From: Xanthomonas sontii
GTDB taxonomy: Bacteria; Pseudomonadota; Gammaproteobacteria; Xanthomonadales; Xanthomonadaceae
Length of the DNA: 64,000 nt
Reading direction: 5' to 3'
NCBI RefSeq assembly: GCF_040529055.1
Contig: NZ_CP132342.1
Coordinates: 3,222,001 to 3,286,000, forward strand
A model generated the notes under the pieces. That model was not told the origin of the DNA. It made no database searches and saw nothing but the letters and a program-made list of their open reading frames with translations. Each line of letters begins with the position of its first letter. The first letter of the stretch is position 1. Shown piece by piece: positions 17,266-38,941 of the stretch. The position numbers and the translations under genes were made by a program.

Positions 17266-17294
17266 TGGGTGCGCCTGCCGCGGCCAAAGGTTGC
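17266..17294 (-). promoter_or_regulatory. ECF-type promoter D (hprK-like / ABC exporter)
   Basis: On the minus strand GCAACC (17294-17289) followed by TTT, then exactly 15 nt after the hexamer, CGCAC (17273-17269) and CCA. The -10 element ends 34 nt before the kinase ATG. Five other sites in the window share the same two blocks and spacing. Confidence 0.72.
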
Positions 17295-17317
17295 GCGGGG
17301 TCATGCCGGTGTTTCGC

Positions 17318-17346
17318 GCAACCAAACGGCGCAGCCACGGCACCTA
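17318..17346 (+). promoter_or_regulatory. ECF-type promoter E (radical SAM / nucleotidyltransferase)
   Basis: GCAACC (17318-17323) then AAA, a 15-nt gap after the hexamer, and GGCAC (17339-17343) followed by CTA. It is divergent from promoter D with the -35 blocks 23 nt apart. The -10 block is 78 nt before the radical SAM ATG. The whole block, including spacer, closely resembles promoter F. Confidence 0.72.
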
Positions 17347-17420
17347 CCGCCACGGCCACCTGCGCGCGGCCATCGCTGCATGCGCCCCTCCCCCGCGGCG
17401 CCGAACGAGACCTTTCGCCG

Positions 17421-18929
17421 ATGCTCAAGATCCAGGTCAGCCACTCCTACTTCCTGCGCTACGACCCCAAGCAATGGGAACGCGGCAAGCCGTACCCGCC
17501 GCTGGCCACGCTGCAGGTGGCGGCACTGCTGCGTCAGCACGGACACCAGGTGACGCTGTTCGACGCGATGCTGGCCGAGGGCGTGGAGGACTACGACCAC
17601 GCCGTCCGCACGCAGCGGCCGGCCCTGGTGGTGTTCTACGAGGACAACTTCAACTTCCTCACCAAGATGTGCCTGAGCCGGATGCGCGAGGCCGCGTGCC
17701 GGATGATCGCCGAGGCGCGCGCCGGCGGCAGCCGGGTACTCGTCGCCGGCTCCGACGCCTCGGACCATCCGGAGGCGTTCCTTGCGGCCGGTGCCGACGC
17801 GGTGCTGATCGGCGAAGGCATCGCGGCCTTGCTGGACCTGGTGGCGCGGCTGCAGGCGGAACCGGACATCGACCCGGCGCGCTGGGTGGCCGGCCTCGCC
17901 GAGGTGGCCAGCGCGGTGCTGCCGCAACTCAAGCGCGCGCAGATCGGCGCGCGGCCGCCGGATCCGCGGCTGTCGGTGACGGCGGCCTGGGACCTGCTGG
18001 ATATCCCGCGCTACCGCGCGTTCTGGCAGCAGCGACACGGCCATTTCAGCCTGAACATGGCCGCCTCGCGCGGCTGCCCGTTCCGCTGCAACTGGTGCGC
18101 CAAGCCGATCTGGGGCAATCACTACAAGCGCCGCGAGGCGCAGGACGTGGCCGCGGAGATGACCCAGCTCAAGCGCAGCTTCGCGCCCGACCATGTGTGG
18201 ATGGCCGACGACATCTTCGGCTTCCACGTGGACTGGGTGGAGGACTTCGCCGATGCGCTGGCCGCCGCCGACGGCGCGGTGCCCTTCACCATCCAGACCC
18301 GTGCCGACCTATGCAGCGAGCGCATGACCGCCGCCCTGGCGCGAGCCGGCTGCCGCGAGGCCTGGATCGGCGCGGAGAGCGGTAGCCAGCGCATCCTCGA
18401 CAAGATGACCAAGGGCACCGATGTGGACGGCGTGATCGCCGCGCGCCAGCGACTTGGCGCGCAGGGCATCCGCGTCGGCTTCTTCCTGCAGCTGGGCTAC
18501 CTGGACGAGCAACTCGACGACATCCTCGCCACGCGCCGGCTGGTGGCGCAGGCGCGCCCGGACGACATCGGCGTCAGCGTGTCCTATCCCCTGCCCGGCA
18601 CCGTGTTCTACCAGCAGGTCAAGGACCAGCTCGGGCGCAAGACCCATTGGCAGGACAGCGACGACCTGGCGATGATGTTCCGTGGCGCCTACGACTCGGC
18701 GTTCTACCGCCAGGTACGCGATCTGCTGCACCGGCAGGTGGACCTGCAATGCCGCGAGGATGCACGCCCGGCGCCGACGCACGCGCAGGACTGGGCGGCG
18801 CTGGACGCCGACTGGGCAGCGCTGATCGCGCGCGAAGCCGAGCATCGGACCGACGCGCCGCCAGCGCCGGCGGCCAAGGCGGTCGCCGCCGGCGGCAGCC
18901 GCCGCATCCCGCTGGTGCAGCGCTCATGA
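17421..18929 (+). CDS. B12-binding-type radical SAM enzyme 1
   Basis: This 502-residue cytoplasmic protein has a Rossmann-like cobalamin-type N-terminal domain (about 20-150) and a radical SAM domain with the [4Fe-4S] motif CPFRCNWC (C219, C223, C226). Further landmarks are IGAESGSQRILDKMTKGT and a GFFLQLGY strand. No DxHxxG cobalamin lower-ligand motif is visible, as is common in this class. The ATG at 17421 starts the conserved MLKIQVSHSYF sequence. Such enzymes often methylate unreactive carbons. It is coupled by ATGA to the nucleotidyltransferase gene. The substrate is unknown; glycan or peptide are both plausible given the kinase and exporter opposite. Confidence 0.83.
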   Translation: MLKIQVSHSYFLRYDPKQWERGKPYPPLATLQVAALLRQHGHQVTLFDAMLAEGVEDYDHAVRTQRPALVVFYEDNFNFLTKMCLSRMREAACRMIAEARAGGSRVLVAGSDASDHPEAFLAAGADAVLIGEGIAALLDLVARLQAEPDIDPARWVAGLAEVASAVLPQLKRAQIGARPPDPRLSVTAAWDLLDIPRYRAFWQQRHGHFSLNMAASRGCPFRCNWCAKPIWGNHYKRREAQDVAAEMTQLKRSFAPDHVWMADDIFGFHVDWVEDFADALAAADGAVPFTIQTRADLCSERMTAALARAGCREAWIGAESGSQRILDKMTKGTDVDGVIAARQRLGAQGIRVGFFLQLGYLDEQLDDILATRRLVAQARPDDIGVSVSYPLPGTVFYQQVKDQLGRKTHWQDSDDLAMMFRGAYDSAFYRQVRDLLHRQVDLQCREDARPAPTHAQDWAALDADWAALIAREAEHRTDAPPAPAAKAVAAGGSRRIPLVQRS

Positions 18930-20209
18930 GCGACCTGGCGACGCCCTCGTCTCCGGCCGTGGCGGCCGACCTGCCGACAGCGGCAGCCGCGGCGACGCCG
19001 GCACACCTGCCGTTGCGGCGCATCGGCCGTGGCCTGCGCCTGACCACCGAAACCCTGGCGCACGAGCTGGCACGCCCCGGTGCGCCGATGCCGGACTGGA
19101 GCGGCCTGCACTGGCAACTGGCCGCAGCCGCGGCGGTCGCGCACGGCGTGGCGCCACTGCTGAGCCAGCGCTCGCAATGGCCGGACCGACCGTGGCGCGC
19201 GTTCCTGGAGGGACAACGCGAGCACGTGGCGCAGCGCTACCAGCGCATCGCCGCGTTGCTGCAGCGAATCGACGCCCTGGCGCAGACCGCCGGCCTGGCG
19301 ATCGTGCCGCTGAAAGGCGCGGCGCTGCATGCGCAAGGCCTGTATCGGCCGGGCGACCGGCCGATGGCCGACATCGACCTGCTGGTGCGCCCCGAGGACG
19401 CCGAGCGTGCCGCGACTTTGCTCGCCGCGCTGGGCTACGTGGCCGAGTTCGCGCAGTGGAAGCACCAGACCTTCCGTCCAGCGCAGGCGCAGGCGGTGGG
19501 TGGCCTGGGCGAGCACCGCGACACGCCGATCAACATCGAACTGCACGTGCGCATCCAGGAGCGCCTGCCGCTGCGCACGGTCGACCTTGGCACGCAGCTC
19601 CTGCCGGGCGACGGCAGGCCCGGCCTGAATCCCTACCCCAGCAACGGCGCGCTGATGCGTCACCTGCTGCTGCACGCGGCCGGCGGACTGTGCAGCCGCA
19701 GCCTGCGGCTGATGCACCTGCACGACCTGGCATTGCTCGCTCCGCGCATGCGCGCCAGCGACTGGCAGATGCTGACCGGCACCGACGCCTGGTGGGCATG
19801 GCCGCCGCTGCGGTTGATGCTGCGTTACTACCGCGCGGCGATTCCGTCGGCGGTGCTCAAGCAACTGCGCGCGCAGTGTCCGCCGCTGTTGCGTCTGCGC
19901 GCGCGCGGATTGGACCTGACCGCGGCGTCGTGCTCGCACCTGTGGCTGCCGGCGCTGCCGGGCATCGAATGGGCGCGTTCGGGCGGCGAGGTGCTGGACT
20001 ATCTGCGCCAGCGCCTGCAGCCCTCGGCGGAAAGCCGCCAGGAACGCGCCGAGATGATCCGTACCCAACTGTGGTTGCAGGGCCAGGACTGGGTGCGCCT
20101 GCCGCAGCGCCGCCGCGTGCTGCAGCGCCTGCTGCGCCCGGTGCCGCGGATGGACACGCTGTACGCGGTGCGCACCGCGCTGCAGGGCTATGCGCCGTCG
20201 TCGGAGTGA
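18926..20209 (+). CDS. nucleotidyltransferase-fold protein (NTP_transf_5-like)
   Basis: This 427-residue protein contains a minimal nucleotidyltransferase core: a Lys/Gly-rich VPLKGAALHAQGLY segment and the metal-binding pair D149/D151 in MADIDLLV, followed by ELHVRI. The N-terminal 40 residues are Ala/Pro-rich and poorly conserved in character. Proteins of this family occur beside HprK-like kinases in lasso-peptide and exopolysaccharide loci. The start overlaps the radical SAM stop (ATGA). It could transfer a nucleotidyl group to a product made or exported by the neighbours; that is inference. Confidence 0.75.
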   Translation: MSDLATPSSPAVAADLPTAAAAATPAHLPLRRIGRGLRLTTETLAHELARPGAPMPDWSGLHWQLAAAAAVAHGVAPLLSQRSQWPDRPWRAFLEGQREHVAQRYQRIAALLQRIDALAQTAGLAIVPLKGAALHAQGLYRPGDRPMADIDLLVRPEDAERAATLLAALGYVAEFAQWKHQTFRPAQAQAVGGLGEHRDTPINIELHVRIQERLPLRTVDLGTQLLPGDGRPGLNPYPSNGALMRHLLLHAAGGLCSRSLRLMHLHDLALLAPRMRASDWQMLTGTDAWWAWPPLRLMLRYYRAAIPSAVLKQLRAQCPPLLRLRARGLDLTAASCSHLWLPALPGIEWARSGGEVLDYLRQRLQPSAESRQERAEMIRTQLWLQGQDWVRLPQRRRVLQRLLRPVPRMDTLYAVRTALQGYAPSSE

Positions 20210-20363: not shown

Positions 20364-21500
20364 TCAACCGTTCTGCGCCGCGCGCCGCTCATCGGTGCGG
20401 CGCGGTGCGCACAGGCGCTGGTACAGCGCGGTGAAGCCGCGCACGCTGCAGTCGGCGTCCTCGCGCAAGGCCCGGCATTGCGCCGCCCAGGCCAGGCGCA
20501 GGCGCAGGTCGTCGTCGCTGAGTACCTGGCGCAGCGCATCGGCCAGCCCGGCCCAGTCGCCCACGGGCACCGCCAGCGCCGCCGACGGCGCCCACTCCTG
20601 CAGATGCCCGACCGCGGTGCCCACGGTCGGCACGCCGGCCACCGCCGCTTCCAGCAACACCAGCGGCCCGGCCTCGTGCTGCGACGACAACACCAGCAGA
20701 TCCGCCGCCTCCACCAGCGGCCGCAGGTCGCGCTGGGTCTTGAAGCCGAGGAAGCGCACGCGCGCGCTCAGGCCCAGCGTGGCGACCAGGCGCTGCATCG
20801 CGCCGTCGAGGGTGTCCACGCCGACCAAGTCGATGCGGAAGTCGACCCCGGCGCGGGCCAGCGCAGCGAGTGCGCGCAACAGGGTCGTCTGGTCCTTCAC
20901 CGGATTGAGGCTGGCCACGTGCAACAGCCGCGCCGGACCCTCCCCGCGCGGGCGCGGCGGGCGCGGTGGCCAGGCGCGCAGGTCCACGCCCAGCGGCACG
21001 CGTTCGGCGGCGATGCCCAACGCCCGCAAGCTGTCGAGGATGGGCGCGCTGGCGGCGGTCACCGCACTCGCCAGGCGCAACACCAGCGCTTCGCGCAGCC
21101 GCCCCTGCCATTTGCGCCGGCCGCCGTAGCCGATCGCATGCAGTGCGACCAGTTCGCCGCCGGCGATGTGCACCAGGCTCGGCCGCCGCAGCCAGCGCGC
21201 TGCCGCCACCGCGATCAGGCTGCAGTGGCCGGAAAACAGCGACTGCACCACGTCGAACGGCGCGCGGCGGTGCTCGGCGCGGATCGCGGCGATCGCGCGC
21301 CAGCGCGTACGCGCCGCACCGATGTTGTGGATCCGCGCACCCAGCAGGTCCCATTGCGCCGGCAGCGGTTCCTGGTGCAGCACGAAGACGTGTAATTCAT
21401 GCATGCGCGCCAGGCGTTCGATCAGGCTCAGGAAGGCCGGAATCACCCGGTACTCGCCGCTGCGGTCGACGCCGCCCGGCACCACCAGCGCCAGCTTCAT
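20364..21500 (-). CDS. family 4-like glycosyltransferase
   Basis: This 378-residue GT-B fold protein begins MKLALVVPGGVDRSGEYRVI. It carries ARLLHVASLNPVKDQTTLL before the nucleotide-sugar domain and the E-x7-E type motif region SSQHEAGPLVLLEAAVAGVPTV. These are typical of retaining GT4 enzymes that use nucleotide sugars in the cytoplasm. It is the last gene of the minus-strand unit and overlaps the upstream glycosyltransferase by 4 nt. Its sugar donor and acceptor are unknown. Confidence 0.8.
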   Translation of the reverse strand: MKLALVVPGGVDRSGEYRVIPAFLSLIERLARMHELHVFVLHQEPLPAQWDLLGARIHNIGAARTRWRAIAAIRAEHRRAPFDVVQSLFSGHCSLIAVAAARWLRRPSLVHIAGGELVALHAIGYGGRRKWQGRLREALVLRLASAVTAASAPILDSLRALGIAAERVPLGVDLRAWPPRPPRPRGEGPARLLHVASLNPVKDQTTLLRALAALARAGVDFRIDLVGVDTLDGAMQRLVATLGLSARVRFLGFKTQRDLRPLVEAADLLVLSSQHEAGPLVLLEAAVAGVPTVGTAVGHLQEWAPSAALAVPVGDWAGLADALRQVLSDDDLRLRLAWAAQCRALREDADCSVRGFTALYQRLCAPRRTDERRAAQNG

Positions 21501-22645
21501 GCCGCGCTCCGCGACGTGGCACCGAGCAACTGCGCATAGGCGCGCGCCCAGCGCCGTCCGACTGCCGCGAACGACAGCTGCGCATCGAAATGCGCGCGCA
21601 CCAGCGCCCGCGACGGCCCGTCGCGCGAGGCCCGCAGCAGCGCGGTGGCCAGGCGTTCGGCGTCGCCGCAGGGCCACAGCGCGCCGACCCGGCCGCCGTC
21701 GCTGAGCGCACGGAACGCCGGGATGTCGGTCAACACCGGCACCGTGCCGCAGGCATAGGCCTCCAGCGCCGCGTAGCCGCAGCTCTCGCCCAGGCTGCCG
21801 GACACGAACAGGTCGGCCGCGCGCATCAGGGTCTGGATCTGCGCGTGCTCCATTCGGCCCAGCAGGTGCACGCGGCCGGCCAGCCGCGGATCGGCCTGGA
21901 TGCGCTGTTGCACCACCGGCAGCAGCGGCGCATCGCCGAACGCGCAGAACAGCTGCAGCCCGCTCAGTTGCTCGCTGGCGCGGGCCACGCCGTCGAGCAC
22001 GGTGAGCGGATCCTTGCCCTCGCTCAGATGGCCGACCCACAGCACGCAGGGCGCGCCATGCAGCCCGCTGTCGCGGCGCGCCTGATCGCGCTCGCCGGGA
22101 GTGAAGCGGCAACTGGATTCGGGAATGGCGAACAGGCGCGTGGATCCGGCGAACAGTCCGGCGCCGACGAAACCGCGCGCCAGCTCCAGCGAGGTGAAGG
22201 CGATGCCGGCGGCGGCGGCGTACCAGCGCCGCCACTGCGGCCGCCGCCACCAGCGCGGCGGACGGTTGGCGTGGTCCTGCAGCAGGATCGGCCGCGACGG
22301 CCGCCAGCGCGCCAGCGTCGCCGCCTCGCGCGCGAACTGCAGGCCATGCACGTGCACCACGTCGGCCTCCAGCTCGGCCAGCAGCGCGGCGATGCGGCGC
22401 AGATGGCGCCGGCGCCCGCTCTCGGCACGGCGCACGAAGTGATAGTTCACGCCGTTGCGCTGCAGGTGCGCATCGACCGCGGCGGCCTGGATCACCGAAA
22501 CGCGGGTGCCGGCGCTGGCCACCGCCTCGGCGATGTCGACCAGCGACGGCCACAGCGCGAACGCCTGCTCCGGCGTCACCCCGTCCGGCAACGGCACGAA
22601 GTTGAGTTGCACGGCATGCACGGCGCGGTCGACGTTGCCGTCCAT
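21497..22645 (-). CDS. family 4-like glycosyltransferase
   Basis: This 382-residue GT-B protein has an N-terminal Rossmann domain with VVHVHGLQFA, then CVLWVGHLSEGKDPLTVL and GSLGESCGYAALEAYACGTVPVLT, the usual GT4 donor-binding region. No membrane segment is apparent. The start at 22645 follows the radical SAM stop (22648) with 2 nt between. It probably adds one residue to the repeat unit or to a modified acceptor in the same pathway as the two methyltransferases and the radical SAM enzyme. Confidence 0.8.
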   Translation of the reverse strand: MDGNVDRAVHAVQLNFVPLPDGVTPEQAFALWPSLVDIAEAVASAGTRVSVIQAAAVDAHLQRNGVNYHFVRRAESGRRRHLRRIAALLAELEADVVHVHGLQFAREAATLARWRPSRPILLQDHANRPPRWWRRPQWRRWYAAAAGIAFTSLELARGFVGAGLFAGSTRLFAIPESSCRFTPGERDQARRDSGLHGAPCVLWVGHLSEGKDPLTVLDGVARASEQLSGLQLFCAFGDAPLLPVVQQRIQADPRLAGRVHLLGRMEHAQIQTLMRAADLFVSGSLGESCGYAALEAYACGTVPVLTDIPAFRALSDGGRVGALWPCGDAERLATALLRASRDGPSRALVRAHFDAQLSFAAVGRRWARAYAQLLGATSRSAA

Positions 22646-22647: not shown

Positions 22648-24159
22648 TCAGATCCCGGACACCTGCGGCCGGTGCAGGCGCACCAGCCGGTTGGCCAGGT
22701 TCAGTTCCCATGGCCGGTCGTAGCGCCGGTAGCGGTAGCGCCACGCGGCCAGCGCGCTGAGGCCGCGCTTGGCCCAGCCCGGCGAGCGCTGGTCCTGCGC
22801 GGTGGGATAGCGGCAGCCGAGCACGGTGACGAAATCGCGGATGCGCTGGCGCAGCGCATCGGTGAGCCAGGGCGCATCGGCGTGGCAGGCGTAGTCCACC
22901 CACTGCGGCTGGGCCCATTCCTCCGGCGTGCGCGGGAACTGCACCGGCACGCCGTCGCGGTCGAGCAAGGGCGTGCCGGCGCGGCGGCCGCGGTCCTTCT
23001 CGTGGCGGCTGCTGTCCGGCAGCGGCGTGTACACGTAGACGATGATTTCCGACTGCGGGTTGATCCGCTTCAGCTCGCGGATGAACTCGAACGTCTGCTC
23101 GGTCTCGCGTTCGCTGTCCTGCGGCGGCGCGACCATGAACGACAGCTCCGGGATCACCCCGTTGCGCCGGCACAGTTCGGCCACTTCCAGCGTCTGGTCC
23201 GGCCGCGTGCCCTTGCGGATCTCCTTGAGCATCGCCCCGCTCGGCGACTCGGCGCCGATGTAGGCCATGCGCAGGCGGCTCTTGCGCACCAGCTTCCAGG
23301 TGCTCTCGGACAGGTTGAGCAGCGCGTCGGCGCGGGCGTAGCACCACCACGGCAGTTCCAGCTTCGCCATCACCTCCAGCAGCGGGATCATGTCGGCTTC
23401 GCGGTCGAAGAAGTTGTGGTCGAAGAACTGGATCGAGTCCGCGCCCAGGCCGTATTTCAGATAGCCCAGCTCGCGTTCCAGGCGGGCCGCGGTCGGCAAG
23501 GCGGTGGCGCCGCCGAACATCGCCGCCACCCCGCAGAAGGTGCAGCGGAAGCGGCAACCCAGCGCGGCCTGGTGCGAGGCGGTGCGCTGGCCGAGAAAGG
23601 TGCGGCCGAGGTAGCGGCGCGGCTCACCCAGCTTCTCGTAGGGGAGCGACGGCAGTGCATCGCCACGCTGGAACGCGCGGTTGCGGTTGTGCACCACCGC
23701 CCCGTCCTGCTTCCAGGACAGCCCGTCGACCTGCGCCAGCGTCGGCCCTTCGCCACGCAAGGCGGCCAGCAGTTCCGGCAAGGTGTCCTCGCCCTGCGCG
23801 CGGATCGCATAGTCCACGTACGGCGCGGCCAGCGCGGTGTCCGGGTACAGCGTGGGAAAATAGCCGCCCCAGACGATCGGCAGTGCCGGGAAGCGCGCAC
23901 GGATGGCCTGCGACAGTGCGATCGACGGTGCCAGTTGCGGCCCGCCCATCACGCTGATGCCGACCGCATCGAAGCGCTGCTCCTGCAGCGCCTGCAGGCT
24001 GCGGTCGATGAAGTCGCGGTCGACATTGCCGTCGATGATGCGGCTGTCGCCAGTGCGATCCAGCGCCGCCGCCAGGTTCAGCAGCGACAGCGGAAAGCGG
24101 GCGCTGGACGGCTTGGTGATGGTGGGATTGACCAGCAGCGTGTTGGGTGTGGAGGACAT
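22648..24159 (-). CDS. B12-binding-type radical SAM enzyme 2
   Basis: This 503-residue protein has an N-terminal cobalamin-type domain (about 1-150, with ISVMGGPQLAPSI and IVWGGYFPTLYPD) and a radical SAM core with CRFRCTFC (C202, C206, C209). Later segments YIGAESPSGAMLKEIRKGTR and FMVAPPQDSERETEQTF fit the P-methylase/BchE-like class. It is the second such enzyme in the island and differs clearly from the first. The gene lies between a methyltransferase and a glycosyltransferase gene in the unit driven by promoter F. Likely roles are C-methylation or oxidative rearrangement of a glycan or lipid; the substrate is unknown. Confidence 0.83.
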   Translation of the reverse strand: MSSTPNTLLVNPTITKPSSARFPLSLLNLAAALDRTGDSRIIDGNVDRDFIDRSLQALQEQRFDAVGISVMGGPQLAPSIALSQAIRARFPALPIVWGGYFPTLYPDTALAAPYVDYAIRAQGEDTLPELLAALRGEGPTLAQVDGLSWKQDGAVVHNRNRAFQRGDALPSLPYEKLGEPRRYLGRTFLGQRTASHQAALGCRFRCTFCGVAAMFGGATALPTAARLERELGYLKYGLGADSIQFFDHNFFDREADMIPLLEVMAKLELPWWCYARADALLNLSESTWKLVRKSRLRMAYIGAESPSGAMLKEIRKGTRPDQTLEVAELCRRNGVIPELSFMVAPPQDSERETEQTFEFIRELKRINPQSEIIVYVYTPLPDSSRHEKDRGRRAGTPLLDRDGVPVQFPRTPEEWAQPQWVDYACHADAPWLTDALRQRIRDFVTVLGCRYPTAQDQRSPGWAKRGLSALAAWRYRYRRYDRPWELNLANRLVRLHRPQVSGI

Positions 24160-24182
24160 ACGGGGCGAACGCAGGACGGGGG

Positions 24183-24878
24183 TCACGGCAGGCGCCGCAG
24201 GCGCAGCACCAGGGCCACCGGCACCTCCAATGCAGCGGGATCGAAATGGGCGCCGGCAGGGATGTCCGCCGGGTCGAGCATCGGTTCGCTGACTGCGTCG
24301 ATAGCCAGCCCGAGCGCGGCGCAGGCGGCGTGCCAGTGGCTGTACAGGTGCTGGGTGTGGCGCACCGCGTAGCGCTGGCCGCCGGCCTTGAAGTCGCGGC
24401 GCCAGCCCAGCGCCGGGCCGATCGGGTGCACGTCGCTGCACAGCACCCAGCCGCCGGGACGGGTGACCCGGCGCAGTTCCGCCAGGGCCGGCGGCAGCTG
24501 CGGCAGGTGCCCCAGCGCCAGCGCGCAAAGGCTCAGATCGGCGCTGGCGTCGGCCAGCGGCAAGGCCTCCAGGCGGCCTTCGCGCAGCGTGTAGCGGCCG
24601 GTATCGACGTCGCCCAGTTCCTGCGCGGCGCGTGTCAGCATCTGTGGCGACAGGTCCACGCCGGTGACGTGGCCGGCGCCACGCTGCAGCGCATGCAGCA
24701 GGTAGCGGCCGCTGCCGCAGCCGGCATCTAGCACGTGCTGGCCGCGCAACGACAGCGGCAGCAAGGCCAGCATGGCGCGCTGCTCGGCCTGCATCACCGG
24801 GTTGTGCGCCTGCGCCGGGTAGCTGTCCGCCCACAGCGCATAGGCGGTCAGCGGATCGAGGGTCGGGACGGCGCTCAT
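24183..24878 (-). CDS. class I SAM-dependent methyltransferase
   Basis: This 231-residue enzyme has motif I VLDAGCGSGRY (49-59), an acidic residue after TGVD for SAM ribose binding, and LRRVTRPGGWVLCSD (post-motif III). It resembles UbiE/Methyltransf_11 small-molecule enzymes. The start overlaps the amidohydrolase stop by 4 nt. Together with the other methyltransferase and radical SAM genes it suggests a heavily methylated product. The acceptor atom is not predictable. Confidence 0.85.
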   Translation of the reverse strand: MSAVPTLDPLTAYALWADSYPAQAHNPVMQAEQRAMLALLPLSLRGQHVLDAGCGSGRYLLHALQRGAGHVTGVDLSPQMLTRAAQELGDVDTGRYTLREGRLEALPLADASADLSLCALALGHLPQLPPALAELRRVTRPGGWVLCSDVHPIGPALGWRRDFKAGGQRYAVRHTQHLYSHWHAACAALGLAIDAVSEPMLDPADIPAGAHFDPAALEVPVALVLRLRRLP

Positions 24879-27022: not shown

Positions 27023-27050
27023 TAGGTGCGGCGGCAGCGCCGTTTGGTTG
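27023..27050 (-). promoter_or_regulatory. ECF-type promoter F (methyltransferase / amidohydrolase / radical SAM / GT unit)
   Basis: On the minus strand CAACC (27050-27046) preceded by T, then AAA, a 15-nt gap after the block, CGCAC (27030-27026) and CTA. It resembles promoter E across almost the whole length, including the spacer. It sits in the 102-nt gap between the Wzz gene and the methyltransferase gene, showing that the downstream six genes have their own start. Confidence 0.7.
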
Positions 27051-27066
27051 AATCGACGAGCTGCTG

Positions 27067-31284: not shown

Positions 31285-32411
31285 GCCGCCACACCCCCGA
31301 AACGCTGGCAGGCATCGATCACCTGCGCCACTGCCGCAGCGTCCAGCGTCGGGCCGATCGGCAGGCTCAACACCTCGGCGCCCAAGCGCTCGCACAGCGG
31401 CAACTGCAGGGTGGCCAGTTCCGGATAGGCCGGCTGCCGATGCGGCGGCGTCGGATAATGCACCAGGCAGTGCACGCCCTGAGCCTGCAGATGCCGTTGC
31501 AGCGCGTCGCGTTGCGCGCAGCGCACCACGAACAGGTGCCACGCATGCGCCGCCGGGTCGGCCACCTGCGGCACGGCGATCTGCGGATGCGCGATGCCGT
31601 CGAGATAGCAATGGGCGATCGCGCGGCGCGCGGCGATATCGGCATCCAGGTGACGCAGCTTGACCCGCAACAGCGCCGCCTGCAGCTCGTCCAGGCGCGA
31701 GTTCACGCCCTGCACCAGATGCCGGTACTTGATGTCCGAGCCGTAGTTGCGCAGCACGCGGAGTTGCGCCGCAAGTTCGGCGTCGTCGGTGGTCACGGCG
31801 CCGGCGTCGCCCAACGCGCCCAGGTTCTTGCCAGGGAAGAAGCTGAAGCCGGCGGCGTGGCCGAAGCTGCCCGCATGGCGGCCGTTGCGGCGCGCGCCAT
31901 GCGCCTGCGCGGCGTCCTCGAGCAGCAGCACCCCATGGCGTTCGGCGATGGCACGCAGTGCGGTCATGTCGGCCAGCTGTCCATACAGGTGCACCGCCAG
32001 GATCGCCCTGGTGCGCGGGCCGATCGCCCGCTCCACCTGCGCCGGATCCAGATTGAAGCTGGCCGCCTCCGGCTCCAGCGGTACCGGCCGCAGCCGGTTC
32101 TCGCTGATCGCCAGGAAGCTGGCGATGAAGGTGTTGCCCGGCACCAGCACCTCGTCGCCTTCGTGCAGCCGGCCCAGCGCGCGGTAGCCGCGCAGGATCA
32201 GGGTCAGCGCGTCCATGCCGTTGCCGACGCCGATGGCGTGAGCGGTGCCGCAGTAGGCGGCGAACTCGCGCTCGAACGCCTCCAGCTCCTCGCCGAGCAC
32301 ATACCAGCCCGAATCGATCACCCGTGCCGCTGCGGCCTTGAGCTCATCGGCATAGCGTGCATTGCTTGCCCGCAGATCCAGGAACGGCACGCTGGCCGGC
32401 GGCAGGCTCAT
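31281..32411 (-). CDS. DegT/DnrJ/EryC1 sugar aminotransferase (FdtB/QdtB-like)
   Basis: This 376-residue PLP-dependent enzyme has the early [13 protein letters not shown] sequence, [25 protein letters not shown] segment, EDAAQAHGA (PLP-binding Asp) and the catalytic Lys in [16 protein letters not shown]. With the ketoisomerase and acetyltransferase in the same operon it fits synthesis of a dTDP-3-acetamido-3,6-dideoxyhexose (Fuc3NAc or Qui3NAc). The start at 32411 overlaps the upstream stop; an in-frame ATG at 32423 is possible. Confidence 0.83.
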
Positions 32412-33349
32412 TGCAACTCCCAACGGTAGAAATCGTGAACCACCGCGCGCGCGCCGAAGCGCTCCTTCTGCTCGACCAGGCCGGCATTGAGCACCTGGCC
32501 CTGCTGCTCGGTGGAAATGCCCAGGCTGAGGAAGTCGCGCTGCGCGTAGACCTGCTCGATCAGCTCGGCCAGCAGCAGGCTCAGCGCATCGGCGCGGCGG
32601 CCCTGCTCCGAGCAGGCCAGGTATTGGGTGTGGACGACGTGGCCGAAGTCGTACACCAGCGTGCCGGCCAGCAGGTCCACGCCGTCGCGGACTTCATACG
32701 GCACGATCTGCGCCGGGAAGCGCGCGCACAGCAGGCGCAGTTCGTCCAGGCTGTGGGTCGGACGCGCGTCGTGGCGTTGCAGGACCTCGCCCAGCAGCGC
32801 ATGCAGCGGCGCCGGGTCGTCCACACGCTGCACGCGCAGCCCGGCGCGGCGCGCCTTGGCCACCGAGCGCTTGCGTGCGGCAGCGAAGCGCGGCGGCACG
32901 CGCAGCGGCACCGCCGAGGACAGGTCGCGACGGTAGAGGCGCGCATCCAACCGATGCAGCGCGTACAGATCCTCCTCCGCCGGACTGCGGTGGAACAGAT
33001 GCGGCACCGCCTTGTACAGCAGTATGCGCACGCCGGCGTCGCGGTAATGCGCCGCGATGCGCTCGAACACTTCCAGCGTGGCCGTCGCGCGCAGCGCGTG
33101 GGTCGACACCAGACCGGCATAGCTGAGTCCGGCATGGCTGGTCACCACGTCGCCGTCGCGGTTGGCCGGGAACACCGCCACCGGCGTGCCGGCGTCCTCG
33201 ACCAGCAAGGAGGCATCGACGAAGCGCGCCGCGTGATAGTCCATGTAGCCGCGCCGGTGCAGCAGATTGCCGTTGCGTGAGGCCTCCACCACGGCATCCC
33301 ACAGCGGTGCGTCGGCCGCGGTGTAGGCCCTAACCGACAGCATCGTCAT
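32408..33349 (-). CDS. FemAB/GNAT-like acyltransferase
   Basis: This 313-residue protein has a tandem GNAT fold of the FemAB/BioF2-like kind, starting [31 protein letters not shown]. It includes [14 protein letters not shown] and a [24 protein letters not shown] segment near the C-terminus. FemAB-like proteins are common in exopolysaccharide loci and may add an aminoacyl or acyl group to a lipid-linked sugar. The start at 33349 overlaps the preceding gene by 20 nt; a second Met lies two codons later. The acyl donor is unknown. Confidence 0.75.
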
Positions 33350-34289
33350 CCTCCCAGACGGTGCCAGCGGGCAGCACCGCCTCGGCCACGCCGAAGCCGT
33401 CGCGGCCCATGTCGTTGCCGTTGTAGAACAGCAACAGCCGCTCGTCGTGGCGGAGCAGCGCCGGGTAGCACAGCGTGCGCGCATCCCAGCCCTCGGCCGA
33501 CAGCGGCAGGCCCAGCGCCGTGTCGCAGCGCTGCCAGTGGCGGCCGTCGTCGCTGACGGCCATGCCTGGCAGATAGGCACCATCGCGGCTGCCGTGGGTG
33601 AAACACATCAGATAGCGGCCACCGTGCCGGTACACCCGCGGGCGGCCGATACGGTATTCGTCGCCTTGCGGTTGCAGGCAGACGGTGTCCTGCCGCGGGA
33701 CCGCCTGCAGGTCGTCGGTCTCCACGCAGCGGATGTGGTAGCGCGGATACGGCGTGCCGCCGAGCCATTCCCAGTCGTCGCCCACCGCGTACCAGAGCTG
33801 CCAGCGGCCAGCGCGATAGCGCGCCGAATGCACCGCGGCGATGGTGCTGCGGCCCGGCGCGCGGTCCAGCAGCGGCGTGTCCTGGCGGCGCTGGAAGGTG
33901 TCGCCGTCGTCGGTGGACACCGCCAGGCCGGTGAAGGCCAGGAACTTGGCCTTCGCCACCTGCTGGAAGCCGACGTAGAACATGTAGAGACCGTCCGGCC
34001 CCTGCACCACGTCGCCGAGGATCATGCCGTTGTCGTCGAAACAGCCGGCGCGGCCGATGTCCAGTACGGGTGCTGCGCTGACGCCCAGCACCCGGGTCGG
34101 ATCGTCGGCGCGCACGTCGACGTAGCCGATGCGGCTGACCCCCGCGTCGTCACGGAAGCCGGCGTAGATGCGCAGACGCTCGGCATCCAGCCGCAGCGGC
34201 GTCGGCGTCAGCGCCGAATGCCGCATCCAGCCGCCGACGCCATCGCGTGCGGTATCGAAGACAAGACCACGTTTGTGCCAGGCGAACAT
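33330..34289 (-). CDS. glycosidase-like five-blade propeller protein (GH43/GH130-like)
   Basis: This 319-residue protein resembles the GH32/43/68/130 beta-propeller fold found in some O-antigen loci. Repeated blades are visible: LRIYAGFRDDAGVSRIGYVDV, GCFDDNGMILGDVVQGPDGLYMFYVGF, and YRIGRPRVYRHGGRYLMCF. Several Asp/Glu residues occur at blade starts. It has no signal peptide, so it would act in the cytoplasm, which is odd for a hydrolase and suggests a transferase or phosphorylase-like role on a nucleotide- or lipid-linked sugar. The FemAB-like gene overlaps its end. The catalytic set cannot be assigned by eye. Confidence 0.65.
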   Translation of the reverse strand: MFAWHKRGLVFDTARDGVGGWMRHSALTPTPLRLDAERLRIYAGFRDDAGVSRIGYVDVRADDPTRVLGVSAAPVLDIGRAGCFDDNGMILGDVVQGPDGLYMFYVGFQQVAKAKFLAFTGLAVSTDDGDTFQRRQDTPLLDRAPGRSTIAAVHSARYRAGRWQLWYAVGDDWEWLGGTPYPRYHIRCVETDDLQAVPRQDTVCLQPQGDEYRIGRPRVYRHGGRYLMCFTHGSRDGAYLPGMAVSDDGRHWQRCDTALGLPLSAEGWDARTLCYPALLRHDERLLLFYNGNDMGRDGFGVAEAVLPAGTVWEDDDAVG

Positions 34290-34294: not shown

Positions 34295-34960
34295 TCACAG
34301 GTCCACGTCGAAGCTGGATTTGCCGGCCACCGCCCGCGCCGGCGCACCGACGTAGACGCGTCCCGGCTCGGTGTCGCGGGTCAGCAGCGCGCCGGCGCCG
34401 ATCACGTTGTCGGCGGCCACCTTGACCCGGTCGCTCAGCGTGGCGTTGACCCCGACGAAGCTGCCCGCGCCGATCTCGCAGTAGCCGGAAATCACCGCGT
34501 GCGAGGCCACGAACACGTGGTCGTGGATCACCGTGCGGTGGCCGACGTGGTTGCCGCTCCACAGGATGCAGTTGGAGCCGATGCGGGTGAACGGCTGCAG
34601 CACGTTGTGCTCGAACACGAAGCAGTGCTCGCCCAGTTCCACGTTGCGCCAGACGAAGGCGTGCGAACTGACGTAGCTGGCCATGCGGTAGCCGCGGCGC
34701 TTGGCGTCCAGGTAGAAGCGCGTGCGCAACCGGTTGAGGCCGCTGGCGGGAATCGCCACGAACACCTCCACCTGCGACGGCGGATAGCGTTGCTCGAGTT
34801 CCTCGTAGGCCACCACCGGCAGGCCGGCCAGGGTGGGCGTGGACAGGTAGTCGCGCTCCACGCTGAAGGCCAGCACGGCGTAGTCGCTGTCGTGGGTGAA
34901 GTATTCGCAGGCGATCTGCGCCAGTTCGCCGGCGCCGACGATGACCAGGGGACGTGCCAT
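34295..34960 (-). CDS. left-handed beta-helix sugar acyltransferase (FdtC/PglD-like)
   Basis: This 221-residue protein has an N-terminal Rossmann-like segment (LVIVGAGELAQIACEYF) followed by hexapeptide repeats from about residue 100 (VELGEHCFVFEHNVLQPFTRIGSNCILW) and a C-terminal RVYVGAPARAV. PglD- and NeuD-type acetyltransferases have this layout. Lying next to a dTDP-sugar ketoisomerase and aminotransferase, it probably N-acetylates the amino sugar. It lies 4 nt downstream of the ketoisomerase gene. Confidence 0.8.
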   Translation of the reverse strand: MARPLVIVGAGELAQIACEYFTHDSDYAVLAFSVERDYLSTPTLAGLPVVAYEELEQRYPPSQVEVFVAIPASGLNRLRTRFYLDAKRRGYRMASYVSSHAFVWRNVELGEHCFVFEHNVLQPFTRIGSNCILWSGNHVGHRTVIHDHVFVASHAVISGYCEIGAGSFVGVNATLSDRVKVAADNVIGAGALLTRDTEPGRVYVGAPARAVAGKSSFDVDL

Positions 34961-34964: not shown

Positions 34965-35381
34965 TCAGGCCTCCTGCCGGCGCAGGCCCGCGGCTTCGCG
35001 CAGGAACTCGTCGTAGTCGAAGATGTAGTCGGTGGGATCGTAGGCCTGGTCGGCGAGCACCATCAGCACGCAGTCTTCGCTGAAGTCGTAGAGATCGCGC
35101 CAGACCATGCTGCCGAGCAGCAGGCCCTGCCGCGGATCGTCCAGCACCACCTGCATCGGTCCACTGCCATCGTCGAGCAGGAACGACACCGAACCGTGCA
35201 GCGCCACCGCCAACTGGTTGAGATGGCGGTGCGCGTGCTGGCCGCGGTGCACGCCGTTGCGGGTGGCGAACAGGTAGTACACGCGGCGGATGTCGAAAGG
35301 CACGTCGCGCTGTTGTTCCAGCGCCACGAGCTGTCCGCGCGCATCGCCGTGCGTCCGCAACTGGATTCGTTCGATTGCCAT
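34965..35381 (-). CDS. WxcM/FdtA-like dTDP-4-oxo-6-deoxyglucose 3,4-ketoisomerase
   Basis: This 138-residue cupin has the family sequence DVPFDIRRVYYLFATRNGVHRGQHAHRHLNQL. The histidines HRGQHAHR (about residues 45-52) form the active-site region of FdtA/QdtA. It converts dTDP-4-oxo-6-deoxyglucose to the 3-oxo isomer for the downstream aminotransferase; which epimer (FdtA or QdtA) is made cannot be told here. RmlA and RmlB, which make the substrate, are not in the window. It is the first gene of the long minus-strand glycan operon, 43 nt after promoter B. Confidence 0.83.
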   Translation of the reverse strand: MAIERIQLRTHGDARGQLVALEQQRDVPFDIRRVYYLFATRNGVHRGQHAHRHLNQLAVALHGSVSFLLDDGSGPMQVVLDDPRQGLLLGSMVWRDLYDFSEDCVLMVLADQAYDPTDYIFDYDEFLREAAGLRRQEA

Positions 35382-35420: not shown

Positions 35421-35449
35421 TGAGTGCCGCGGGTCTGCGGAAAGGTTGC
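35421..35449 (-). promoter_or_regulatory. ECF-type promoter B (glycan operon)
   Basis: On the minus strand GCAACC (35449-35444) TTT, 15-nt gap after the hexamer, GGCAC (35428-35424) then TCA. The -10 block ends 43 nt before the ketoisomerase ATG. It faces promoter A: the two -35 blocks form an inverted repeat about 24 nt apart. Confidence 0.75.
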
Positions 35450-35472: not shown

Positions 35473-35501
35473 GCAACCTTTCGCCGCAGCGCCGGCACCC
35501 A
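35473..35501 (+). promoter_or_regulatory. ECF-type promoter A (cytochrome / Cyc2-like operon)
   Basis: GCAACC (35473-35478) TTT, a 15-nt gap after the hexamer, GGCAC (35494-35498) followed by CCA. It lies 85 nt before the cytochrome b561 ATG and is divergent from promoter B, so one sigma factor could fire both glycan and redox operons. Confidence 0.75.
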
Positions 35502-35582: not shown

Positions 35583-36170
35583 ATGACCTCGCCCACGCCG
35601 GCCGCTCCGAAACCACCTGTGTCCCCCGCTGCCGCATCGGCCGCGTTGCCGCGGCCGATGGTGTGGCTGCACTGGCTCACCGTGCTGTGCCTGGTGCTGG
35701 CGGCGGGGCTGATCCTGCTGCGCGAAGAGGTCGAAGGCCGCATGTGGCGGCAGTGGCTGCTGGAAGGCCACCGCCACTTCGGTCTGTTCGTGCTCGGCCT
35801 GTTCTGCCTGCGCGTCGTGCTGCGGATGCGCCTGGGCAAGCGCCACGACCCGGAGGCAGGTTCGGCGCTGATGCGCCTGCTGGCCGGCGCCACCCACGTG
35901 GTGATGTACGCGCTGCTGCTGACCCTGCCGGTGCTGGGCTGGGCGCTGAGCCAATCGATGGGCAAACCGGTGCATCTGTTCGGCGCGACGCTGCCGGAGC
36001 TGGTCGCGCCCGATCCCGATCTCGCCGACACCCTGGGCGCCTGGCACGTGGACGCGGCCTGGCTGCTGCTCGGCCTGATCCTGCTGCACATCGGCGCGGC
36101 GCTGTGGCACCACCTCGTCCGCCGCGACGCGGTGCTGCAACGGATGCTGCCGTTCCTGCGCCGCCGCTGA
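35583..36170 (+). CDS. cytochrome b561-type membrane protein
   Basis: This 195-residue protein has four predicted TM helices and histidines suited to bind two b hemes (H30 in TM1, H63/H65, H105 in TM3, H155 and H169 near TM4). That is the pattern of the bacterial cytochrome b561/Ni-hydrogenase b-type family. It would move electrons between the quinone pool and periplasmic cytochromes. The N-terminal 25 residues are Pro/Ala-rich. It is first in an operon with two c-type cytochrome genes. The ATG at 35583 is the first Met that preserves TM1. Confidence 0.83.
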   Translation: MTSPTPAAPKPPVSPAAASAALPRPMVWLHWLTVLCLVLAAGLILLREEVEGRMWRQWLLEGHRHFGLFVLGLFCLRVVLRMRLGKRHDPEAGSALMRLLAGATHVVMYALLLTLPVLGWALSQSMGKPVHLFGATLPELVAPDPDLADTLGAWHVDAAWLLLGLILLHIGAALWHHLVRRDAVLQRMLPFLRRR

Positions 36171-36235: not shown

Positions 36236-37600
36236 ATGCACCAGGCCCCGTCGTCCCCCTCCACCTTCTCCCGCAGCGATAGGACGCGCGGCGCCGAGCA
36301 GGCGCTGCTGTGGTCGGCGCTCGGTTCGCTGCTGCTGGTGCTGAGCCCGCGCGCGGCCGCGGTGCCGGCATTCGCGCGGCAGACCGGCTCGTCCTGCGCC
36401 GACTGCCACATCGGCGCCTACGGCCCAGCGCTGACCCCGTACGGCATGCGCTTCAAGCTCGGCGGCTACACCGACAGCGACGGCAACGGCACCAAGATCC
36501 CGGTCTCCGCCCAGCTCACCGCCACCCGCAGCGTGCCGGCGCGCGGCGAGAGCCGCACCCGCTTCAGCGAAGCCGACCTGTACCTGGCCGGACGCATCAC
36601 CGACAACGTCGGCGGCTACGTCAAGGTCGCCAGGACCAACAACGGCAAGAACGACTACACCACGCGCCTGGACAACGTGGACCTGCGCGCGGTGGTCAAG
36701 AGCTTCCAGCTCGGCGGCAAGGACACCCTGCTCGGCGTCAGCGTCAACAACAATCCCGGCAGCCAGGATCCGATCGGCATGCTGCCCAACGCCTCCGGCC
36801 TGGGTCCGGCCTCGGCCTATGCCAGTTCGACCACCCTGCTCAACCAGTCGTCGCTGTCCAACCGGGTGATCGGCACCAGCGTCTACGGCCTGTACGACCG
36901 CAACTGGTACGGCGAACTCGGCACCTACACCGCCCTGCCTGTGTCGACCCAGGACGATCTCGGCTACGCCATCGGCGGCGATCCGGGCAAGCTCAGCGAC
37001 ACCGGCTACCTGCGCCTGAGCTACATGAAGGACCTCAAGCGGCAGTTCTTCTCCGCCGGCGTGGTCGCGCTGACCACGCGCCGGCAGCTGCCGCGCAGCA
37101 CCGGCCCGCGCGACGACTTCACCGATCTCGGCTACGACCTCAACTACCAGTTCCTGGGCACCCGCGAGCACATCCTCAAGCTCGGCTACCTCAACATCTA
37201 CGAGCGCCGCCGCTACGGCAGCGCACTGATCGACCCGACCAACCCGGCCCTGGCCGGCCCGCGCCGGGCCAGCGTGCGCGACCAGTCGATCAGCCTCAAC
37301 TACACCTACAAGCAGAGCTACAGCCTGCTGCTGGCGCACTTCATCAACACCGGCTCGGACGATCCGTTCCGCTACCGCCCGTACGGCGCGCCGGACACCA
37401 CCAGCAACCTGATCAGCGCCTCGTGGGCACCGTTCGGCAAGGACGACAGTTACTCGTCGATCTCCAACCTGCGCCTGTCCGCGACCTGGTTCCGTTTCAG
37501 CAAGTTCAACGGCAGCACGGGCAACGTGTTCGGGGCCACCCCGGTCACCCGCCCGCGCGACCTCAACCAGTTCGCGCTGAGCCTGAGCCTCGCTTTCTGA
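36236..37600 (+). CDS. Cyc2-like fused monoheme cytochrome c and outer-membrane porin
   Basis: This 454-residue exported protein has a signal segment (about 23-42) and, right after it, one heme c site in VPAFARQTGSSCADCHIG (C54, C57, H58), followed by LTPYGMRFKLGGYT. The rest is a beta-barrel: alternating hydrophobic strands ending in Phe (LSLSLAF), an outer-membrane signature. This is the layout of Cyc2, the fused cytochrome-porin of Fe(II)-oxidising bacteria, and the length matches. An AAGGA lies about 9 nt before the ATG. It could carry electrons across the outer membrane; direction and donor are unknown. General similarity to Cyc2 is read by eye, not by alignment. Confidence 0.75.
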   Translation: MHQAPSSPSTFSRSDRTRGAEQALLWSALGSLLLVLSPRAAAVPAFARQTGSSCADCHIGAYGPALTPYGMRFKLGGYTDSDGNGTKIPVSAQLTATRSVPARGESRTRFSEADLYLAGRITDNVGGYVKVARTNNGKNDYTTRLDNVDLRAVVKSFQLGGKDTLLGVSVNNNPGSQDPIGMLPNASGLGPASAYASSTTLLNQSSLSNRVIGTSVYGLYDRNWYGELGTYTALPVSTQDDLGYAIGGDPGKLSDTGYLRLSYMKDLKRQFFSAGVVALTTRRQLPRSTGPRDDFTDLGYDLNYQFLGTREHILKLGYLNIYERRRYGSALIDPTNPALAGPRRASVRDQSISLNYTYKQSYSLLLAHFINTGSDDPFRYRPYGAPDTTSNLISASWAPFGKDDSYSSISNLRLSATWFRFSKFNGSTGNVFGATPVTRPRDLNQFALSLSLAF

Positions 37601-37623: not shown

Positions 37624-38019
37624 ATGAAACGCACCCATGCCCTCTCCCTGTGCACCCTGCTGGCCGGCCTGCTGCCGCTGGCCGCCGTGGTGGCGCCGTC
37701 CGCACGGGCCGCCGGCGGCATGCCCGGCGCCGGCGTGTTCGCCAGCGAATGTGCCGAATGCCACAGCGCCGCGCCGGCCAAGAACAAGAAGGGCCCGACC
37801 CTGTTCGGCGTGGCCGGGCGTCGCGCCGGCAGCGTGCCGGACTACGCCTATTCCGACGCGATGAAGCAGAGCCAGTGGACCTGGAGCGACGACAAGCTGC
37901 GCAGCTACCTCTCGCAACCGGCGTCCAAGGCGCTGCCCGGCGGCAAGATGAAGTACGACGGCCTGGACGATGCCAAGCAGTTGCAGGACCTGATCGCCTA
38001 CCTGCACAGCCTGCATTGA
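37624..38019 (+). CDS. periplasmic class I cytochrome c
   Basis: This 131-residue protein has a Sec signal (cleaved after about residue 29, ARA), the heme site CAECH (C43, C46, H47) and an axial-ligand Met in GGKMKYDG (M109). That is the c2/c550 small cytochrome layout, with GPTLFGVAGR after the heme. It sits between the Cyc2-like porin and a TorF-like porin gene, so it is the natural periplasmic electron carrier between the porin and the b561. It starts 23 nt after the porin gene. Confidence 0.9.
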   Translation: MKRTHALSLCTLLAGLLPLAAVVAPSARAAGGMPGAGVFASECAECHSAAPAKNKKGPTLFGVAGRRAGSVPDYAYSDAMKQSQWTWSDDKLRSYLSQPASKALPGGKMKYDGLDDAKQLQDLIAYLHSLH

Positions 38020-38113
38020 ACTCGCTGCCCGATCCGGTCATATTCGGCGCCCGACGGGCCGGCCAGCGTGCCGCGCCCGTGCCCGATTCCTGACCTGCGA
38101 GCATCGAGTCACC

Positions 38114-38905
38114 GTGCGTTTTTTGCCTGCCGTCCGCGGTGCCTCGTCCCGGCCACCCGCCGTCGCCCAGCGTTGCAGGACGGGCACCGCGGCCCGGCGG
38201 TCAGCGCATCCGTGCGCCGGCGCGGCGCTGGCCCTGGCGCTGGCCGCCCTGCACGCCCCGGCGGCGACGGCCGGCGACATCGGCGGCGCCGCCGGGATCA
38301 GCTCGCAACTGGTCGACCGCGGCATCGCCGTGACCCGCGCGACCCCGACCTTGCAGGGCGCGCTGTTCTGGCTGCCGGCGCCGGGCTGGTCGCTGAGCGG
38401 CTCGGCCAGCGTGGCGCTGGACGCGCCGGGCACGGTGCTGATGAGCAGCCTCGGCCTGTCGCGCAGCTGGACCGTGTCCGACAGCTGGCTACTGCAGGCC
38501 GAGGTGCTGCTGTACCGCTACCCCGGCGCGCGCGCCAACCGCCTGTTCAACCGCGACGAGGTCAGCCTGGGCTGGAGCTACCGCGACCGCCTGAGCCTGT
38601 CGCTGGCCGCCTTCCGCATGCCCGACAGCGGCCTGCAGCAGCGCTGGTACGGGGCGCTGGACCTGACCGCGCACCAGCCGCTGACCGGCCCACTGTCGCT
38701 GTCGGTGGGCGCCGGCGTCAGCCAGGCGCCGCCGACCCTGTACGGACTGGAGTACACGGCGCACTATCGCTACGGCCACGCCGGGCTGATCTGGAACGCC
38801 GGGCGCTGGAGCCTGGAGGTGGACCGTGTGTTCAGCAACGCCCGCACCGGCTATGCCGACCGCGGCCTGTGGCCGTGGGTGGCCAGCGTCTCCCGCAGCT
38901 TCTGA
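38114..38905 (+). CDS. TorF-like outer-membrane protein
   Basis: This 263-residue protein has an Arg-rich N-terminus, a signal-like hydrophobic stretch ending near residue 53 (AATAG), then amphipathic beta strands ending in Phe (ASVSRSF). The segment ISSQLVDRGIAVTRATPTLQGALFWLPAPGWSLSG matches the TorF putative porin family. The only plausible start is GTG at 38114. It is the last gene of the cytochrome operon, 94 nt after the cytochrome c gene. Its role is unknown, perhaps a pore or partner of the Cyc2-like protein. Confidence 0.72.
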   Translation: MRFLPAVRGASSRPPAVAQRCRTGTAARRSAHPCAGAALALALAALHAPAATAGDIGGAAGISSQLVDRGIAVTRATPTLQGALFWLPAPGWSLSGSASVALDAPGTVLMSSLGLSRSWTVSDSWLLQAEVLLYRYPGARANRLFNRDEVSLGWSYRDRLSLSLAAFRMPDSGLQQRWYGALDLTAHQPLTGPLSLSVGAGVSQAPPTLYGLEYTAHYRYGHAGLIWNAGRWSLEVDRVFSNARTGYADRGLWPWVASVSRSF

Positions 38906-38912
38906 GGCGAGC

Positions 38913-38941
38913 GCAACCTTTCCGTGCCGCCCCGGCACATA
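38913..38941 (+). promoter_or_regulatory. ECF-type promoter C (sigma factor autoregulation)
   Basis: GCAACC (38913-38918) TTT, 15-nt gap after the hexamer, GGCAC (38934-38938) then ATA. The -10 block is 31 nt before the sigma factor ATG at 38969. A GTG at 38924 lies inside the promoter and so is not a likely start. Confidence 0.75.

Follow-up and report, generated by a model that had tools for sequence, protein, structure and literature searches.

Organization of the Locus

The stretch of DNA analyzed here (the window) comprises 64,000 nucleotides of Xanthomonas sontii (contig NZ_CP132342.1, bases 3222001-3286000). Within it, genes for surface sugars, cytochromes, and transport form a 27-kb block with six promoter-like sites, which are probably read by a dedicated extracytoplasmic function (ECF) sigma factor encoded in the same block (Table 1). 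An earlier note, made from the sequence alone, had proposed an ECF regulon including glycan, radical SAM, kinase/exporter, and cytochrome genes. All of these classes are found downstream of the sites, and the sigma operon itself can be added to them. Co-transcription within each unit is assumed from gene order. The unit behind site 4 runs from the FdtA-like gene through NeuD-type, glycosidase-like, GNAT, DegT, Wzx, and GT2 genes and a further stretch to Wzz. The one behind site 5 contains cytochrome b561, an outer-membrane barrel-like protein with CxxCH, a cytochrome c, and a TorF-like porin.

The gene behind site 6 is, as the earlier note had it, that of an ECF sigma factor: regions 2 and 4 exceed the Pfam cut-off, no region 3 family is listed, and the best solved relative is E. 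coli sigma-E (E = 2.4e-16). By their order, the genes for this protein, a presumed membrane-bound anti-sigma factor, and an S8 protease form a three-gene operon in which both junctions overlap (TGATG for sigma/anti-sigma, ATGA for anti-sigma/protease).

A Two-Block Motif at Six Sites

Exactly six matches to KCAACC-N15-SGCACNNA occur in the window, whereas 100 dinucleotide-preserving shuffles gave 0.05 on average and never more than one. The six sites of the earlier note are thus all present, with the third starting at 27051 rather than at 27050, and the motif is not as frequent in random DNA. Only a gap of 15 nucleotides between CAACC and SGCAC gives six matches, any other gap from 10 to 21 giving at most two. 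In all six sites CAACC is followed by TTT or AAA (GCAACCTTT in four, GCAACCAAA in one, and TCAACCAAA in one), and the other 12 spacer bases vary. That the sites arose by chance, or all stem from one short mobile or duplicated element, has a negligible probability. Chance is rejected by the six matches against 0.05 expected. Copies of a repeat would agree with the likeness among sites of one genome and between the two divergent pairs that four of the six make up, but the spacers are unlike each other, varying between the six sites and between species while the two blocks persist, and this explanation is also rejected.

Every site is directed at the first gene of its unit (6/6). From the final conserved A to the start codon there are 27 nucleotides for the sigma gene, 30 for the HprK-like gene, 39 for FdtA (ATG at 35379-35381), 58 for the methyltransferase (GTG start assumed), 74 for the radical SAM gene, and 81 for cytochrome b561. 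The blocks had been read as −35 and −10 elements of an ECF promoter. The 15-nucleotide spacing and the AAC core fit this reading. The −10 block, given as GGCAC, is better written GYACNNA, since some relatives have GGTAC. The AACCTTT core of the sites is similar to the −35 box of SigW, ATTGAAACCTTT, as given in the available text of PMC8103513.

Near-Confinement of the Motif to One Locus

A search of the whole genome (a single contig of 5,019,584 bases), the check proposed in the earlier note, gives seven strict matches, six of them inside a 22-kb stretch; the reversed pattern, used as control, gives three. The seventh (G000:C1:3042754) lies outside the locus and lacks the TTT/AAA block after CAACC. 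With A or T required at two added positions (KCAACCWW), there are six matches in the genome, all in the locus, and none for the control. A relaxed pattern (CAACY...GYACNYAC) has eight matches, four in the locus and four scattered, with two for the control; it misses sites 4 and 5. A few weak sites may therefore lie far from the locus. A genome-wide regulon is rejected, as the single strict match beyond the locus lacks the TTT/AAA block. From its distribution in the sequence, the motif is nearly confined to one locus, and the predicted regulon is local, with six units and about 23 genes.

Conservation of the Motif and Association with the Sigma Gene

Searching species-representative genomes for the sigma protein yielded 139 loci. 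The best 80 of these come from Xanthomonas, Dyella, Luteibacter, Rhodanobacter, Frateuria, Pinirhizobacter, some metagenome bins, and the Burkholderiales Paracidovorax, Acidovorax, Paucibacter, Aquabacterium, Piscinibacter, Ideonella, and Methylibium. The closest named relatives among them are in Xanthomonas sp. NCPPB 1128, at 99 percent over 193 residues, and in Xanthomonas sp. F10, at 97 percent, in agreement with an origin in Xanthomonas, probably in its early-branching group. Upstream DNA is present in 79 of the 80 (L084 is cut off). In the stretch from 200 nucleotides before the sigma gene to nucleotide 30 of the gene itself, the strict form of the element is found in 58 of the 79 loci (mean of 0.0 in shuffles of the same stretches). 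The relaxed form (CAACY, GYAC) is found near the gene in 74 and is missing from L010, L060, L063, L076, and L085. Several relatives have GGTAC for GGCAC at this place. With gaps of 15-17 permitted, the gap is 15 in all 74 matched loci. The search pattern imposes CAAC, G, AC, and the final A, and restricts the leading base to G, T, or A, which is G in 67 of the 70 distinct sites; at positions 6-8, which are free in the pattern, T is found in 64, 69, and 62 of these. The element upstream of the sigma gene is kept across two bacterial orders while its spacer drifts.

The other sites are mostly conserved as well. The one before cytochrome b561 is found in 57 of 61 loci (50 strict) and the one before FdtA in 59 of 63 (46 strict). 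Eleven loci have the methyltransferase gene plus upstream DNA, and eight of these have its site (all strict). Elsewhere in these loci there are only seven strict matches in 1,493,239 bases. In 18 of 18 loci, that of X. sontii included, the HprK-like gene has two divergent relaxed sites upstream; the presumed equivalents of site 2 frequently read ACAACC. The HprK-like protein is found in 15 of 19 other genomes of the genus, and in G035 and G055 outside it.

These genomes belong to a panel of 60 (X. sontii, 19 others of the genus, and 40 from outside it) that was searched with the KCAACCWW pattern. A match to the sigma factor at E = 1e-20 or better is present in 22 genomes, X. sontii included. 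Within the genus, 16 of the 19 have an ortholog together with two to six motif matches each (77 in total), every set falling in one locus as read from the list of matches, and the three genomes without an ortholog (G001, G009, G013) have none; the reversed control gives three matches in the 19. The exceptions lie outside the genus. Of the eight matches in G035 (ortholog at 82 percent), five fall in its locus and three elsewhere, and G055 (74 percent) has none. Of the remaining 38 genomes, eight have one or two matches each (10 in total) and no close ortholog, one of them (G026) having a distant sigma homolog; the reversed control gives six matches in the 40. With few exceptions, then, the conservation of the motif, its co-occurrence with the sigma gene within the genus, and the five other units argue for the ECF regulon proposed earlier.

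Instead of a sigma promoter, the motif might be the binding site of an activator or repressor, and the placement of four of the six sites in two divergent pairs is a layout frequent for regulators. This is very unlikely, as the motif is non-palindromic, consists of two blocks at a fixed gap, is aimed at the first gene 27-81 nucleotides downstream, and within the genus goes together with the sigma gene; its AAC core is, moreover, known for ECF −35 boxes (available text of PMC8103513).

The Anti-Sigma Factor and Its Neighboring Protease

The second gene of the operon codes for a protein with a zinc-binding part and, after one long hydrophobic helix, a further domain. The Hx3Cx2C zinc motif is present in all 79 homologs, whose genes lie next to an ECF gene, and 32 of 33 homologs match zf-HC2 with E values up to 1; the protein of the window scores 20.4 bits for this family against a cut-off of 22.2. 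The profile match with RsiW is weak (E = 0.01). In a predicted model (mean pLDDT 83, pTM 0.43), N-terminal helices precede a long helix at 96-125 and a C-terminal domain with a strand at 144-148, a helix at 154-163, strands at 166-170 and 178-182, a helix at 191-200, and a strand at 204-209, shortly before the last residue, 213. Given this model, the domain after helix 96-125 is presumed to be periplasmic.

The protease belongs to the subtilisin type: PF00082 is matched in 29 of 29 homologs, in which the triad D200, H233, and S383 is invariant. The model of its own prodomain presents the same order of elements as the anti-sigma domain (strand 52-57, helix 84-97, strands 99-107 and 112-119, helix 125-134, strand 138-143). 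A profile comparison of the anti-sigma domain with this neighboring prodomain gives P = 5.8e-6, with 0 of 200 shuffles reaching the match. The fold, beta-alpha-beta-beta-alpha-beta, has subtilase prodomains as top listed matches, which is weak evidence alone, the fold being common. Weak matches to PF22148 are found in 8 of 33 anti-sigma homologs (best E = 0.011) and not in the protein of the window; the I9 family is absent from the 15 families listed for the homologs, and no family match of this kind is found for the window's own protein. From these comparisons, the presumed periplasmic domain of the anti-sigma factor appears to be related to the prodomain of the co-encoded protease.

One might accept the ECF regulon and still see in the protease a mere product of it, acting for instance on a surface protein, with the anti-sigma domain sensing something else and release of the sigma factor left to DegS/RseP-type proteases. 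This is unlikely, though clearly less so than a regulator site. The sigma, anti-sigma, and protease genes are adjacent in 8 of 8 Burkholderiales loci, a protease gene adjoins the sigma gene in three of three homologs with sigma identities of 42-52 percent, and the anti-sigma domain is similar to the prodomain of this very protease.

Gene Content of the Predicted Regulon and Its Variation

Most of the loci examined in Xanthomonas and Rhodanobacteraceae share this gene order over the extent of their contigs. The exceptions include L010 and L012, where the cytochrome genes have different glycan genes or none next to them, and L060; the b561 unit is unmatched in L072, L073, and L075-L077. Some assignments fall short of family cut-offs. 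The HprK-like kinase scores 33.8 and 32.6 bits for HprK-related kinases B and A in NCBIfam (cut-off 200 each), and the Wzx-type flippase 275.7 bits for WzxE (PRK15099; cut-off 325). The putative Wzy stretch has no match in NCBIfam or Pfam, nor has the barrel-like protein at E = 0.001. The protein that we take to be FdtA/WxcM-like is so named from its sequence. The HprK-like, NTP_transf_5, ABC exporter, and radical SAM genes (14362-20209) are together reminiscent of peptide-tailoring (lasso-peptide/RiPP) clusters.

Table 1. Promoter-like sites and genes of the locus, in window positions
Feature	Coordinates	Strand	Remarks
ABC exporter	14362..16143 (open reading frame limits; probable ATG near 16074)	-	Pfam ABC_tran, ABC_membrane; site 1 unit
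HprK-like kinase	16174..17235	-	Pfam Hpr_kinase_C E 3e-6, below cut-off
Site 1, promoter-like element	17266..17294	-	Before HprK-like kinase/ABC exporter unit
Site 2, promoter-like element	17318..17346	+	Before B12-radical SAM 1/nucleotidyltransferase unit
B12-binding radical SAM protein 1	17421..18929	+	Site 2 unit
NTP_transf_5 nucleotidyltransferase-like protein	18926..20209	+	Pfam E 1.3e-29
GT4-type glycosyltransferase	20364..22553 (start uncertain)	-	Site 3 unit
B12-binding radical SAM protein 2	22648..24834 (start uncertain)	-	Site 3 unit
Amidohydrolase	24875..26107	-	Site 3 unit
Methyltransferase	26110..26964 (GTG start assumed)	-	Site 3 unit
Site 3, promoter-like element	27023..27051	-	Before methyltransferase/amidohydrolase/B12-radical SAM 2/GT4 unit
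Wzz-type chain-length protein	27067..27930	-	Site 4 unit
Family-2 glycosyltransferase (GT2)	29090..30985 (start uncertain)	-	Site 4 unit
Wzx-type flippase	30031..31611 (start uncertain)	-	Pfam Polysacc_synt above cut-off
DegT-type sugar aminotransferase	31281..32423	-	Pfam E 2.2e-107
GNAT-type acyltransferase	32408..33583	-	Pfam Acetyltransf_6
Glycosidase/phosphorylase-like protein	33330..34289	-	Weak NCBIfam match, synteny
NeuD-type sugar acetyltransferase	34295..34960	-	TIGR03570 above cut-off
FdtA/WxcM-like sugar ketoisomerase	34965..35381	-	Sequence, synteny; no NCBIfam match
Site 4, promoter-like element	35421..35449	-	Before FdtA-led glycan unit
Site 5, promoter-like element	35473..35501	+	Before cytochrome b561-led unit
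Cytochrome b561-type membrane protein	35583..36170	+	Pfam E 3.1e-25
Outer-membrane barrel-like protein, N-terminal CxxCH heme motif	36236..37600	+	Sequence reading; present in syntenic loci
Small cytochrome c	37624..38019	+	Pfam Cytochrom_C
TorF-like putative porin	38117..38905 (start not fixed)	+	TIGR02001 E 2.4e-8, below cut-off
Site 6, promoter-like element	38913..38941	+	Before sigma gene; autoregulation presumed
ECF sigma factor	38969..39550	+	193 amino acids; Pfam sigma-70 r2, r4
ZAS-type anti-sigma factor	39550..40191	+	213 amino acids; ZAS part, one long hydrophobic helix, prodomain-like domain (about 141-210)
S8 (subtilisin-type) protease	40188..41516	+	Own prodomain, possible lipoprotein; Pfam Peptidase_S8 E 4e-32

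In the Burkholderiales, the TorF-like gene adjoins the sigma gene in six of eight loci (L084 has no upstream DNA and L085 no match). The glycan cluster was not found by a Pfam scan of 19 proteins, a part of the open reading frames, from three Burkholderiales neighborhoods (10 from L086, six from L081, and three from L087). In Paucibacter (L081), strict sites precede a barrel-like CxxCH protein and a membrane protein (7419-8531 on the minus and 12651-13265 on the plus strand), both without a Pfam match, pointing to a different regulon driven by the same type of sigma factor. To judge from this one genome, the sigma factor may first have acted on an outer-membrane heme protein and come to control the glycan later.

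On the other side of the operon, genes for cytochrome c maturation (ccm; CcmC-like, CcmE, and CcmF, 41527-45013 on the plus strand) begin 10 bases past the stop codon of the protease gene, and because of this short distance the sigma operon may extend into them. Such ccm genes follow the protease gene in Xanthomonas loci, and CcmF is matched only in Xanthomonas among the best 80 of the 139 loci. Matches to the CcmC-like open reading frame outside Xanthomonas are not counted as CcmC, as part of that frame overlies the protease gene in another reading frame. Elsewhere in the window, a large DUF5682 protein is encoded at 1007-3418 on the plus strand (Pfam E = 3.7e-247), and positions 4001-8000, with a G+C content of 0.567 where most other blocks are at about 0.70, are perhaps acquired DNA.

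Proposed Mechanism and Significance

The model that we regard as probable, taken as a whole, has the six elements as promoters of one ECF sigma factor, held by the anti-sigma factor, with its release governed by the protease that docks on the prodomain-like domain. It builds on the motif, its near-confinement to the locus, its conservation, the gene overlaps, and the domain relation, all read from the sequence. The −35 element would be GCAACCTTT or KCAACCAAA and the −10 element GYACNNA, with a fixed gap of 15 nucleotides between CAACY and NGYAC. From these elements, the sigma factor would transcribe its own operon and the five neighboring units, so that one signal would turn on the whole set of glycan-assembly, radical SAM, export, and cytochrome genes, and few if any genes elsewhere in the genome. 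We infer promoter activity, the pairing of this sigma factor with the motif, and autoregulation because the element is present and tied to the sigma gene. ECF sigma factors that control their own gene and a local regulon are ordinary in kind, and presumably this is one, if an unusually clean case.

The zinc-binding part of the anti-sigma factor, which the presumed membrane topology places in the cytoplasm, would hold the sigma factor, and the periplasmic S8 protease would dock onto the prodomain-like domain as onto its own prodomain. Cleavage, as the first step of regulated proteolysis, or the loss of docking would then set the sigma factor free, and autoregulation would afterwards amplify the response. 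In subtilisins, the C-terminal tail of the prodomain sits in the active site. By analogy, the anti-sigma domain could keep the protease tethered to the membrane or be its substrate. As to the direction of the switch, we favor that cutting or displacement frees the sigma factor; less probably, the sign is the opposite and the protease is needed to keep the system off. The more specific proposal that the anti-sigma factor is a membrane-tethered prodomain, which descends from, or along with, that of the protease, has its conserved C-terminal tail in the active site, and lets the state of the protease decide the activation of the locus, is a serious possibility that we hold only tentatively.

The near-single-locus regulon, the three-gene operon, and an anti-sigma factor with a domain like a protease prodomain go beyond the earlier note, and the anti-sigma/protease pair is more interesting than the promoter finding. 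Together, these elements make a complete and testable wiring diagram for a locus of surface-glycan and cytochrome genes, with sigma factor, anti-sigma factor, protease, six promoters, and about 23 genes. The locus is present in most of those examined from Xanthomonas and Rhodanobacteraceae, and its sigma-anti-sigma-protease core extends to Burkholderiales. With so specific a motif, a large part of what this sigma factor controls would be readable from genome sequence. If the prodomain reading is true, an extracytoplasmic protease would be coupled to transcription in a new way, by a tethered copy of its own inhibitor.

Comparison with Known Systems

In the literature searched by titles and abstracts (few subscription papers, no supplements), no description of this sigma regulon or of a prodomain-like anti-sigma factor was found. 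ECF22 resembles the present system in its genus and in the set of a sigma factor, an anti-sigma factor, and a dedicated promoter. In the available parts of the sources, ECF22 from Xanthomonas campestris is inactive in S. meliloti (PMC10880074), an ECF22-dependent promoter is used with its anti-sigma factor in E. coli (PMC6883643), and 29 promoter models for 43 ECF subgroups are obtained by autoregulation logic (PMC3817407, the available main text of which does not name ECF22). The published ECF22-dependent promoter may cover the motif. If the sigma factor is ECF22, the motif is already catalogued, and the local regulon and the prodomain relation are still new as far as the literature found goes.

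We take the sigma factor, as a guess, to be RpoE4 of X. campestris (XC_2566 = XCC1665 = XAC1682). The guess rests on the conservation given in Table 2 of PMC6085468 (93 percent, Xcc against other species) and on adjacency to ccm genes. As far as their available texts go, that paper describes deletions of X. campestris ECF genes with an effect on virulence for RpoE1 only and gives no regulon for RpoE4, and PMC13147305 gives XAC1682 only as a modelled sigma factor. Subtilases occur in ECF54 contexts without anti-sigma factors (available text of PMC8999054), an arrangement other than the sigma/anti-sigma/S8 operon described here.

The system differs from ECF sigma/ZAS anti-sigma pairs such as SigW-RsiW, and from RpoE-RseA, in the subtilase-prodomain-like part of the anti-sigma factor after the helix, in the S8 protease encoded by the third gene of the operon, in its −10 block GYACNNA, and in a predicted regulon of nearly one locus. 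The topology of the anti-sigma domain is that of I9-type and fervidolysin-type prodomains and of POIA1, a free subtilisin inhibitor with the subtilase-prodomain fold, and the domain aligns to subtilisin prosegments. Unlike the I9-type and fervidolysin-type prodomains, however, it is part of a presumed membrane-bound anti-sigma factor, with no protease domain after it in the chain.

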